Part shown: piece after piece, positions 29,356 through 54,012 of the stretch
How the letters are laid out: the number at the start of each line of letters is the position of its first letter
Numbering within the stretch: position 1 is the first letter of the stretch
NCBI GenBank assembly: GCA_029882975.1
Contig: JAOUJW010000011.1
Span: 62,001-126,000, forward strand
Source of the DNA: Gammaproteobacteria bacterium
Lineage (GTDB): Bacteria; Pseudomonadota; Gammaproteobacteria; SZUA-152
Reading direction: 5' to 3'
DNA length: 64,000 nucleotides
The notes under the pieces: generated by a model
Seen by the model: the letters and a program-made list of their open reading frames with translations, nothing else
Told to the model about the DNA's origin: nothing
The model's database searches: none
Position numbers and translations under genes: made by a program

Positions 29356-29429
29356 TTTGACTCCCCCCTGCGAGTCTTAAATTGAAGACCTTTTCTGTGT
29401 TGAAGACCACAACTGAGTTGATGGCTCTT

Positions 29430-29487
29430 ACGTTGAGGACTCTTGTACGTTGAGGACTCTTGTACGTTGAGGACTCTTGTACGTTGA
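29430..29487. repeat. 17-bp tandem repeat upstream of the TfoX-N gene
   Basis: Three exact 17-bp units (ACGTTGAGGACTCTTGT) at 29430, 29447 and 29464, then a partial fourth. Degenerate related units (for example GAGTTGATGGCTCTT) extend leftward to about 29395. It lies in a 331-bp gap between the divergent TfoX-N gene and a small gene at 29687. No other gene is seen in that gap. Confidence 0.85.
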
Positions 29488-37173: not shown

Positions 37174-38532
37174 ATGGAGAATCGTTTTTCACTACTGTCC
37201 GTAGTTTCCCTTTGCCTGACAGTACTCGCTATAGCCGGCATAAGTCCCAACATCAAGGCAGCAGCCGGTACCGACGAAATTGTTAATACCTGCACCGCTT
37301 TGTACGGCGGAGTATTCAACCCCGCTAACAAGGAACCCCTGGGCACCTGCCAATGGGATATGAGCCTGATTAAAGCAGGTGAATCCAGTTATAGCCAAGC
37401 CACTGGCAAAGGCGTCAGAGTCGGCGTCATTGACACAGGAGTAGACATCAATCACCCAGACATTCGTGCCAATCTGGACCTGGAGCAGTCCTGTTCCTTT
37501 ATTTACAATCACACGCCAACAGCCCATCCCAATGAAATCGCTAACGGAGACTGCCGTAACAAAGCTGCGGTACAAGATCTGGCCGGTCACGGTACTCACG
37601 TAGCCTCCACGATTGCCGCTCCACTCAATGATATAGGCATCGCCGGCGTGGCACCGGAAGCTACCATTGTTGCCCTGAAGGTATGCACCTTTGCAGGCTA
37701 TTGTTTTGCCGACTCGGTGGCAGCAGCACTGCGCTATGCCGGTGATTTGGGACTGGATGTGGTGAATCTGAGTTTATTTGCCGATCCGTATTTGTATTAT
37801 TGCAAGTCCGAAGCAGAGCAACGAAAAATTCTCTCTGAGTTAGAAGGCGCCGCCCGCTACGCCCAACAAAAAGGCGTGTTGATTGTAGCATCTGCAGGAA
37901 ATGAACAAGCAGACTTGCAACATCCCCTCATTGACGACATCAGCCCGGACTGGCCTCCGGGAACCGCCGAAACCCGCTATGTGCGCAATAACTGCCGTGT
38001 GGCGCCGGCAGAACTGCCCGGAGTGATGACCGTCGCAGCCACCGGCCCTATCGGTTACCCCGGTTATGACCTGTGGATTGCCGACTACTCCAGTGTCGGC
38101 ATGTCTCGCGTCGATATCGCCGCCCCCGGCGGTGACTATTTTCGAGCCACTGGCACAGCCCAGGATGCTATCTTAGCCGCCATGACCAGTACCAGTGAGG
38201 ACGGACTGTGGGATTTTTTTGATTCTTTGAACGCGGTGTTTCCCGGCATCACCGTCGTGGACCAAGGGGCCCGTTACATTTATCTAAACGGTACGTCCAT
38301 GGCAGCGCCCCATGCCACCGGCGTTGCTGCACTGGTGAAACAACGACACCCTGAGTACAGCCCTGCTGCCGTCAAAGCCACGGTGGAACTCACGGCACAA
38401 GCCCTGAGTTGCCCGCCTAACTGGGAGCCGCTCGGACCGCTGGATATGCGCGAACGGTGTTACGGTGATGGTGGCCGCACCTCATTTTTTGGACATGGCG
38501 TGGTGGATGCCGAAGCGGCTGCGGCTCACTAA
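37174..38532 (+). CDS. Secreted subtilisin-like serine protease (S8)
   Basis: 452 residues with a signal peptide (about 1-31). The catalytic triad is intact: Asp87 in VIDTGVDINHPD, His139 in GHGTHVAS, Ser375 in NGTSMAAPHATG. The oxyanion Asn is in SAGNEQ. Several Cys in the mature part suggest disulfides. There is no long propeptide before the catalytic domain (about 50 residues), which is short for the family. It is exported to the periplasm or outside. AAGGAG lies 8 nt before the ATG. The 3' end merges into a tandem repeat that contains the stop codon. Confidence 0.93.
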   Translation: MENRFSLLSVVSLCLTVLAIAGISPNIKAAAGTDEIVNTCTALYGGVFNPANKEPLGTCQWDMSLIKAGESSYSQATGKGVRVGVIDTGVDINHPDIRANLDLEQSCSFIYNHTPTAHPNEIANGDCRNKAAVQDLAGHGTHVASTIAAPLNDIGIAGVAPEATIVALKVCTFAGYCFADSVAAALRYAGDLGLDVVNLSLFADPYLYYCKSEAEQRKILSELEGAARYAQQKGVLIVASAGNEQADLQHPLIDDISPDWPPGTAETRYVRNNCRVAPAELPGVMTVAATGPIGYPGYDLWIADYSSVGMSRVDIAAPGGDYFRATGTAQDAILAAMTSTSEDGLWDFFDSLNAVFPGITVVDQGARYIYLNGTSMAAPHATGVAALVKQRHPEYSPAAVKATVELTAQALSCPPNWEPLGPLDMRERCYGDGGRTSFFGHGVVDAEAAAAH

Positions 38533-38623
38533 AACCTTAAGTTCACTAAAACCTTAGTTCACTAAAACCTTAGTTCACTAAAACCTTAGTTCACTAAAAC
38601 CTTAGTTCACTAAAACCTTAGTT
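38527..38623 (+). repeat. 16-bp tandem repeat spanning the subtilase stop codon
   Basis: Six units of CACTAAAACCTTAGTT (the first is 17 bp with one extra A) run from 38527 to 38623. The first unit holds the last codon and TAA of the protease (CAC TAA), so the repeat is a serial duplication of the gene end. The units are nearly identical, which implies recent expansion. Confidence 0.92.
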
Positions 38624-38650
38624 CAGTAAAAAACCGCTTAAATTATACAC

Positions 38651-48693: not shown

Positions 48694-48770
48694 GCGCCCG
48701 TAGCTCAGCTGGATAGAGTAACTGGCTTCGAACCAGTTGGTCGGGAGTTCGAATCTCTCCGGGCGCGCCA
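48694..48770 (+). tRNA. tRNA-Arg (anticodon UCG)
   Basis: A 77-nt cloverleaf. Acceptor GCGCCCG pairs with CGGGCGC. The D arm is GCTC...GAGT, the anticodon stem ACTGG/CCAGT encloses loop CTTCGAA with anticodon TCG, and the T arm GGGAG TTCGAAT CTCTC follows. The discriminator is G and CCA is encoded. It reads CGA arginine codons. The last 19 nt recur twice downstream. Confidence 0.95.
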
Positions 48771-48771
48771 T

Positions 48772-48816
48772 AAATAGAAAAGGGGTCCTGCTTTTTAGGA
48801 CCCCTTTTCTATTTAT
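48772..48816 (+). terminator. Terminator hairpin, repeat copy 1
   Basis: A perfect 18-bp stem (48772-48789 with 48797-48814) around loop GCTTTTT, right after the tRNA CCA. The T-rich 3' arm makes it a good intrinsic terminator for the tRNA transcript. Confidence 0.8.
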
Positions 48817-48947
48817 CGTGGTTGGGGTTTGATGCAGAACTCCTTAGTTCGACAAAATTGTCTGGAACAATTTTGAACGCCGCAAAGCGGCGGCCCCGAA
48901 GGGGTGAGGCGCATGGATGCGCCGAATAATCTCTCCGGGCGCGCCAT

Positions 48948-48992
48948 AAATAGAAAAGGGGTCCTGCTTTTTAGGACCCCTTTTCTATTTAT
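48948..48992 (+). terminator. Terminator hairpin, repeat copy 2
   Basis: Same sequence as the copy at 48772, exactly 176 bp later, again directly after the tRNA-tail copy. Confidence 0.75.
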
Positions 48993-49123
48993 CGTGGTTG
49001 GGGTTTGATGCAGAACTCCTTAGTTCGACAAAATTGTCTGGAACAATTTTGAACGCCGCAAAGCGGCGGCCCCGAAGGGGTGAGGCGCATGGATGCGCCG
49101 AATAATCTCTCCGGGCGCGCCAT

Positions 49124-49166
49124 AAATAAAAAAGGGTCCTGCTTTTTAGGACCCTTTTTTATTTAT
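49124..49166 (+). terminator. Terminator hairpin, repeat copy 3 (compensated variant)
   Basis: A perfect 17-bp stem (49124-49140 with 49148-49164), same loop GCTTTTT. Relative to copies 1-2 one G-C pair has become A-T and one G-C pair is lost, on both arms together. Confidence 0.75.
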
Positions 49167-49247
49167 CGTGGCTGGAGTTTGCCCCACGCAAAATCGTGTT
49201 TTATATGCCGCACCTTCAGGACTCTTTGTTTTTATCCGCATACCGGC

Positions 49248-53106: not shown

Positions 53107-53910
53107 ATGGCCTTTCTGGCGGGGGAAGCAGAGAATCCCGGACTTTACTATGAAGTTCACGGGGGCGGCCCGGACCTGATCCTGATTCATGGACTGGGAT
53201 CCAGCCTACAGGATTGGGAATACCAAATTCCAGTCTTTGCGAAGTACTTTCGGGTTCATGCCCTGGATCTACGCGGCTTTGGCCGCTCTGACAAACCGGA
53301 TGGCCCCTACAGTATTCCCGTTTTGGCGCAAGATATTTTGCGCTTTATGGATCAGTTGCACTTACAACAGGCTCACATTGTCGGTATATCCATGGGGGGC
53401 TGGATTGGGCTGCAGTTAGCGGTAAGCCATCCGCAGCGTATCGCCAGTCTCACCGCCGTAAACTGCGGCGCCGATGTCATTCCCAAATCCCTAAAACAAT
53501 GGTTTGAACTGCTGCTGCGCTTGGTCTTATTTCGGTTTCTGAGTATGGAGCGCATTGGCGACATTCTGTCACGACGCTTATTCCCCGGTCCAGATCAAGT
53601 CAAATTAAGAGAAACCTTGGCCGCTCGCTGGGCCGAAAATCATAAGGCAATTTACTTAAAAACCTTTCAGGGATTAGTAGGCTGGAGTGTGGCAGGTCAA
53701 CTCGGACAAATTCAATGCCCCACCCACATCATCACGGCTGAACATGACTACACAGACCTGGCGAGCAAACAGAACATGGTAAATCTCATTCCCAATGCAA
53801 CATTAACCATAATTGAGAACACGCGCCACGCCCTGCCCCTGGAACAGCCTGAACAATTTAATCAGGCGTCCCTGGGGTTTTTGCGGGAGATAGAGCCCTC
53901 AGCGAATTAA
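53107..53910 (+). CDS. Alpha/beta-hydrolase fold protein
   Basis: 267 residues. The oxyanion loop is LILIHGLGSSLQDW, and the nucleophile elbow GISMGGWIG places the catalytic Ser near residue 95. The acid is probably in ITAEHDYTD, and the catalytic His is in ENTRHALPLEQPEQF. Esterase, BioH-like and dienelactone-type enzymes share this pattern. The substrate cannot be told. It starts 3 bp after csiV. The final codons (EPSAN stop) are the first unit of an 18-bp tandem repeat. Confidence 0.88.
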   Translation: MAFLAGEAENPGLYYEVHGGGPDLILIHGLGSSLQDWEYQIPVFAKYFRVHALDLRGFGRSDKPDGPYSIPVLAQDILRFMDQLHLQQAHIVGISMGGWIGLQLAVSHPQRIASLTAVNCGADVIPKSLKQWFELLLRLVLFRFLSMERIGDILSRRLFPGPDQVKLRETLAARWAENHKAIYLKTFQGLVGWSVAGQLGQIQCPTHIITAEHDYTDLASKQNMVNLIPNATLTIIENTRHALPLEQPEQFNQASLGFLREIEPSAN

Positions 53911-54012
53911 GAGCCCTCAGCGAATTAAGAGCCCTCAGCGAATCAAGAGCCCTCAGCGAATCAAGAGCCCTTAGCGAATTAAGAGCCCTTAGCGAATTAA
54001 GAGCCCTTAGCG
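53893..54012 (+). repeat. 18-bp tandem repeat spanning the hydrolase stop codon
   Basis: Six full units and a partial seventh of GAGCCCTCAGCGAATTAA, starting at 53893, 53911, 53929, 53947, 53965, 53983 and 54001. Unit 1 holds the gene's own last five codons and TAA (EPSAN stop). The period is divisible by three, so every unit stays in frame. Units 3-4 carry CAA instead of TAA, and units 5-7 share a C-to-T change, showing pairwise duplication. Confidence 0.95.

Follow-up and report, generated by a model that had tools for sequence, protein, structure and literature searches.

A 64,000-nucleotide stretch of a gammaproteobacterial draft genome of the GTDB lineage SZUA-152 (GCA_029882975.1; contig JAOUJW010000011.1, positions 62,001 to 126,000; the window) carries a tRNA-Arg(UCG) gene with an encoded CCA end (48694 to 48770, plus strand; ARAGORN; Rfam tRNA, 67.5 bits) that runs into a tandem array downstream on the same strand (48752 to 49181). 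Tandem Repeats Finder (TRF) gave the array a period of 176 bp and 2.5 copies. Unit 1 (48752 to 48927) overlaps the tRNA end with its first 19 nt, and unit 2 (48928 to 49103) is identical to it. A partial third unit (49104 to 49181), 93% identical over its 78 bp, retains the 19-nt tail and a diverged terminator-like palindrome. Both full units begin with AATCTCTCCGGGCGCGCCA, i.e., nt 58 to 76 of the tRNA (A58 to A76) including CCA, at 19 of 19 positions; an exact, in-register repeat of this length is far beyond chance. An earlier note on this DNA, made without database searches, had described the 19-nt opening and the 176-bp period, and both were reproduced here. The full 176-bp unit occurs at a single location in the 5.18-Mb source genome (whole-genome comparison), and the list of open reading frames (ORFs) contains none of at least 80 aa within the array. 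Because the assembly is a 59-contig draft, the copy number of the identical units could be off.

Within each unit, the 19-nt tail is followed by a long terminator-like palindrome, a spacer, a half T-arm (AGTTCGA), and a module of approximately 75 nt, referred to here as M, which ends in GAAT and directly adjoins the next tail. The first palindrome (T1, 48771 to 48815) is perfect (AAAAGGGGTCCT-loop-AGGACCCCTTTT); it is repeated as T2 (48947 to 48991) and recurs in diverged form as T3 (about 49123 to 49166). A simple scan for terminators did not report any of the palindromes in the array, probably because their T runs sit inside the stem. MicroRNA-type Rfam matches at the array were discarded, as they were produced by the perfect palindrome. 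By comparison with the T-arm in reverse complement, the spacer (48816 to 48852) consists of a degenerate inverted T-arm (GAACTCC) and then the half T-arm. M copy 1 (48853 to 48927), supported by a covariance model (R1, see below), by folding (z-score, -4.2), and by family covariation, forms four hairpins: hp1 (48853 to 48875; CAAAAUUGU-CUGGA-ACAAUUUUG), hp2 (48878 to 48892; CGCCGC-AAA-GCGGCG), hp3 (48894 to 48904; CCCC-GAA-GGGG), and hp4 (48908 to 48923; GGCGCA-UGGA-UGCGCC). M copy 2 (49029 to 49103) is identical, with the same hairpins at +176. Each unit thus presents two GGA hairpin loops (CUGGA in hp1 and CAUGGAUG in hp4), which amounts to four in the array, the motif looked for in a titrator of CsrA. 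We take the GGA loop (CANGGAUG) of hp1 and hp4 to be the CsrA/RsmA recognition motif, and the GGA hairpins of the window copies are, by analogy, most likely putative CsrA-binding sites.

The layout is that of the tRNA-linked repeats (TLRs) of Escherichia coli, of which there are 22 units at ten loci, each with 18 to 19 bp of the preceding tRNA or 5S gene at its end (PMC8144298). TLRs, first described in 1978, had no function assigned to them until RrB was reported to bind CsrA (PMC8144298). The TLRs of E. coli (rtT at tyrT; RrA, RrB, and RrF at rrn; Egan and Landy 1978; Rudd 1999; Stenum et al. 2021, PMC8144298) likewise repeat 18 to 19 bp of a stable-RNA 3' end at a downstream site. Those at rrn lie between terminators. 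The E. coli TLRs share the module described here, which is matched by R1. Given its downstream position, its 19/19 tail, and the homology of its core, the array is, judged by sequence, a TLR. It differs from the E. coli TLRs in its association with tRNA-Arg(UCG), its distant lineage, and the degeneracy of its tail-complementary 5' strand. The period of rtT is 178 bp rather than 176 bp, and the strong GGA hairpins of the array resemble those of RrB, unlike those at tyrT. TLRs were already known as a kind; what is new here is the M core, i.e., one mobile module with GGA hairpins by which rtT, the rrnB T1-T2 interval, and insertions in ERIC-type repeats and tRNA loops are connected across the class.

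R1 was built from eight module sequences (source genome and relatives), including the window copy and no E. coli member; the score of the window copies (98.8 bits) is therefore that of a training sequence. The model matched the E. coli rrnB T1-T2 interval, i.e., RrB (50.4 bits; E value, 5.6e-15), and four copies at tyrT (21 to 30 bits), which have the identical junction GGTTCG(A/G)|M|ATCC. The rtT-like architecture proposed in the earlier note is supported. Matches at the arg, leu, gln, and pro tRNA loci of E. coli were weak or absent (10.9 bits or less), and diverged TLRs are therefore missed by R1. Two Rfam families aligned at full length below their cutoffs: RF00391 (RtT), from terminator to CCA, at 24.5 bits (gathering cutoff, 45), and RF02902 (AaHKsRNA22, an Aggregatibacter small RNA [sRNA]), over M, at 33 bits (gathering score, 39.8). 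The Rfam search output gave no clan for either family.

M was present in 84 of the 185 sampled genomes of the class (80 of 177 genera), with up to 24 copies per genome. The source genome contains 14 copies, nearly all adjoining tRNA genes or tRNA fragments. Among 176 distinct copies, 103 have an intact tRNA or tmRNA gene within 1 kb, compared with our chance estimate of about 3% (taking a 3-Mb genome to have roughly 50 tRNA genes). Near tRNAs, 64 loci are in the sense orientation and 7 are antisense. At least 15 nt of the neighbor's 3' end is carried by 45 of the 176 copies, 19 nt being by far the commonest length. The remaining 73 copies have no intact tRNA within 1 kb. The earlier note had held that finding the unit widely away from tRNA genes would count against its reading. 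This is the case for M in part: such a spread is what a mobile element would show, but the tail-bearing units remain tied to tRNA or rRNA genes. Relatives searched for the locus itself yielded mostly tRNA-Arg(ACG) matches, with no M alongside except in one case (L223; 30 bits, weak to moderate), and a search with the neighboring AraC-family protein returned two distant loci, both without tRNAs. In the source genome (G000), five tandem M copies with a 77-bp period and no tRNA tails lie beside a tRNA-Phe 3' fragment (L006 and L084; G000:C8:20392-20787).

The boundaries of M are consistent across its sites. In T-loops, M begins after GGTTCGA, i.e., after A58, and 18 to 19 nt of the tRNA remain, which accounts for the 19-nt length of the tail. 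The same junction, with (T)CGA preceding M and A following it, recurs in tRNA-Ser D-loops (L037 and L056), in the anticodon loop of a tRNA-Ser(CGA) (L064), in the T-loop of a tmRNA (L053), antisense in a tRNA-Leu of the source genome (L038), and in one case inside another M (L055). Filled and empty sites could be paired directly. In a D-loop pair (L056), identity to the intact tRNA copy extends 21 nt to the left and 52 nt to the right; T-loop pairs were found at L011, L060, and L200, and pairs within the source genome were found at L037 and L038; the anticodon-loop copy (L064) and the nested copy (L055) also count among the sites of this kind. Direct alignment of empty sites worked better than virtual excision followed by ARAGORN, which restored one tRNA only, because most copies retain only part of the tRNA. 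Outside tRNAs, an ERIC-type repeat is interrupted by M in Salmonella (L237), for which an E. coli locus (L238) provides the uninterrupted repeat, and a second interrupted repeat is found at L234. Several copies lie in-frame inside protein genes of one genome (G158), and others were found on plasmid and phage records. On the basis of these boundaries, the empty-site pairs, and the ERIC-type and in-frame insertions, M is a mobile unit, and a TLR would be its tRNA-lodged form. Insertion of M into the T-loop of a tRNA copy is well supported, and the 19-nt tail would therefore be the downstream piece of the tRNA and not an attachment site. The earlier note was supported in its suggestion of a general mechanism based on a small mobile unit that targets tRNAs, the mobile part being the inner ~75-bp hairpin module, but not in its alternative that the tRNA tail serves as the attachment site.

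Several further arrangements were observed beside these. Three antisense copies lie in the T-loops of tRNA-Leu copies beside an intact tRNA-Leu(UAA) (L038 and L083; G000:C5:157713-158135). Ahead of a tRNA-Arg(ACG) in the source genome, its first ~20 nt occur a second time together with an insert rich in hairpins, resembling a D-loop insertion upstream of the intact gene (L007, about 1200 to 1460; G000:C13 near 59.4 kb). Where M lies in an upstream tRNA copy (L011, L012, L056, and L143), the T-stem strand beyond M is succeeded by an inverted complement of itself, mirroring the layout before M in downstream units. A larger repeat (CGCAGGA^ACCGGAGTGTATG) encloses M at several places (L148, L159, L195, and L202; G196 and G051). 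At L080 (G158:C1:1265500-1285400), many M copies lie in large genes of an apparently phage-defense-like island and are read in-frame as ANLDSRQAGPEGAASRDG-type peptides. Regarding the means of movement, no mobilizing enzyme for M was identified. The Y1 transposase RAYT was checked and rejected as a candidate, since 1 of 31 Y1 loci had a clear M within 1.5 kb (beside a tRNA-Arg) and the source genome holds a Y1 fragment only. Two scans of viral contigs with the hp1 pattern gave one match, indicating that phages are not an obvious main carrier.

The hairpins are maintained across the family. Among 92 distinct M sequences, standard pairs were present in 93.9% of cells, compared with 69.9% in shuffles (0 of 500 shuffles reached the observed value), and 22 of the 23 pairs of the M stems showed changes on both sides, a signal that collapsed in slid controls; as the alignment was fitted to R1, the statistic is somewhat inflated. 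While the stems change, GGA is kept in the hp1 loop of 163 of the 176 copies and in the hp4 loop of 166, the commonest hp4 loops being CAGGGAUG, CAUGGAUG, CAGGAUG, and CAAGGAUG. In tail-bearing units, the region 5' of M is often complementary to the unit's own tRNA tail (mean stem score, 21.1 versus 14.8 in permutations; 0 of 20,000), and this pairing closes the unit with a long helix whose 3' end is free, e.g., at L013 (z = -9).

Taken together, these observations favor the following account, to which we assign a probability of roughly 0.6. M would insert 3' of (T)CGA and favor tRNA loops as its targets. Its insertion into the T-loop of a tRNA-Arg(UCG) copy would have created a unit composed of half T-arm, M, tRNA nt 58 to 76, and terminator. 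Recombination or slippage between the flanking tail-terminator direct repeats would then have duplicated this unit, probably recently, because the two units are identical. Read-through past the terminators would yield M RNA segments ended by the tRNA 3' tail, as for RrB between rrnB T1 and T2, and the GGA hairpins would then most likely be CsrA-binding sites, so that the locus would act as a tRNA-coupled CsrA titrator. Read-through expression as a CsrA-binding RNA is proposed here by analogy with RrB, and processing at the tail and any benefit to the cell are likewise inferred. RrA, RrB, and RrF are read-through transcripts that lie between a pair of terminators, and they bind Hfq and CsrA (PMC8144298); binding of CsrA at about 100 nM, dependent on GGA, was shown in vitro for E. 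coli RrB only (PMC8144298).

A number of points weigh against this account. Predicted CsrA binding in E. coli is limited to RrA, RrB, and RrF and excludes the 19 tRNA TLRs (PMC8144298). M is not confined to genomes with a detected csrA; it is present in several genomes without a CsrA match, e.g., G036 (listed as 100% complete) and G115, and GGA loops are found in 14 of 17 copies from five CsrA-negative genomes (G031, G036, G115, G121, and G145), some of which are incomplete drafts in which the gene may be missed. Therefore, CsrA alone may not explain the GGA loops. The sample itself is biased, as R1 favors GGA (its seeds contain GGA and are mostly tRNA linked, and the top-scoring matches were taken). 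Moreover, the window copy lacks the tail-complementary 5' strand: its complementarity is not significant and is limited to the degenerate inverted T-arm. Pairing between 5' strand and tail is thus significant for the family and was rejected as a universal feature. Regarding the genomic surroundings of csrA, M copies lie within about 1.3 kb of this gene in the source genome, G147, G148, G168, and G038 (csrA-tRNA-Ser-tRNA-Arg region); in the source genome, the copy (L085) is at G000:C13:88391-88477 and csrA is at G000:C13:89171-89329.

The strongest rival is that M is a purely selfish palindromic element, REP/MITE-like or similar to the Rickettsia palindromic elements, whose RNA is useless to the host. 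It would accumulate at tRNA copies because these provide TTCGA^A as a target and because a unit that enters downstream of an intact tRNA does no harm, and the GGA loops would serve its own mobility. In keeping with such an element, M occurs in both orientations, lies nested within M, interrupts ERIC-type repeats, is inserted in-frame in protein genes (L080), and turns up on plasmid and phage records; the retention of GGA loops in genomes without a detected csrA fits as well. Against it stand the excess of sense over antisense loci near tRNAs (64 versus 7), although the T-loop target TTCGAA is palindromic, the family-wide fit of the 5' strand to its own tRNA tail, and the transcription and CsrA binding of RrB (PMC8144298). 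We consider this explanation possible, with the odds against it.

The array could also be an sRNA locus that arose by slippage alone, the 176-bp unit having been tandemly duplicated without M ever being mobile. The identity of units 1 and 2 speaks for this, as does the tandem growth seen at this and other loci. Nevertheless, slippage does not place M with the same boundaries at many tRNAs, in different loops, antisense, and outside tRNAs, nor does it produce pairs of filled and empty sites, and we regard this origin as improbable. Still less credible is the view that a site-specific recombinase placed tandem mini-elements using the tRNA tail as an attachment site. The tail is indeed a perfect direct repeat at the edge of every unit, a pattern shared with integrase sites in tRNA genes, but M enters at the T-loop, and just as well at D- and anticodon loops. 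A boundary of this kind also marks the D-loop, anticodon-loop, antisense, nested, and ERIC-type insertions, which have no tRNA tail; the tail is likewise missing from the right flanks at non-tRNA sites, and the array holds no ORF of the size noted above. An assembly artifact, which the earlier note had raised and to which identical units in a short-read draft would lend themselves, can be practically dismissed, because the same architecture recurs in many unrelated genomes, including single-contig ones and the finished chromosome of E. coli K-12.

Compared with other known systems, the M array likewise offers several GGA hairpin loops, with CANGGAUG in hp4, as do the CsrB/CsrC/RsmY-type RNAs. 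It carries two GGA hairpins per unit and is coupled to a tRNA instead of having its own promoter, and it is a putative binder of CsrA. The GTAG-REPs with RAYT and the CGTC-REPs are also short palindromic repeats, some without a dedicated transposase and some intragenic (PMC3733652). M differs from both in its four hairpins and its tRNA-loop target; no GTAG or CGTC tag was seen, and flanking RAYT was not found. The window contains three further short tandem repeats, at 29429 to 29487 (17 bp × 3.5), 38526 to 38631 (16 bp × 6.6), and 53892 to 54012 (18 bp × 6.7). Rickettsia palindromic elements are palindromic units that can be read in-frame inside protein genes; M at L080 resembles them in behavior alone, their lineage and sequence being different. 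Insertions within ERIC sequences were reportedly described in 1997 by Cromie, Collins, and Leach and by Sharp (cited in PMC3696847). Since M interrupts ERIC-type repeats at L234 and L237, without a tRNA context, the inserted unit is probably the same as M, which would thus have been seen before in that setting.

Extended to the class, the proposal is that a single mobile palindromic unit, spread across the class, homing to TCGA within tRNA loops, and bearing CsrA-type GGA hairpins, gave rise by insertion to all TLRs, including rrnB T1-T2 and rtT, and that tRNA and rRNA operons have repeatedly gained CsrA-binding RNAs by transposition. We put this forward tentatively, at slightly less than even odds. 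Were TLRs indeed T-loop insertions of such a unit, the duplicated tail, its constant 19-nt length, and the double terminators would be explained together. The rtT repeats, the rrnB T1-T2 interval, and the ERIC insertions would then belong to a single family, found in nearly half of the genomes sampled from the class, and this family would provide a testable route from stable-RNA transcription into CsrA regulation.
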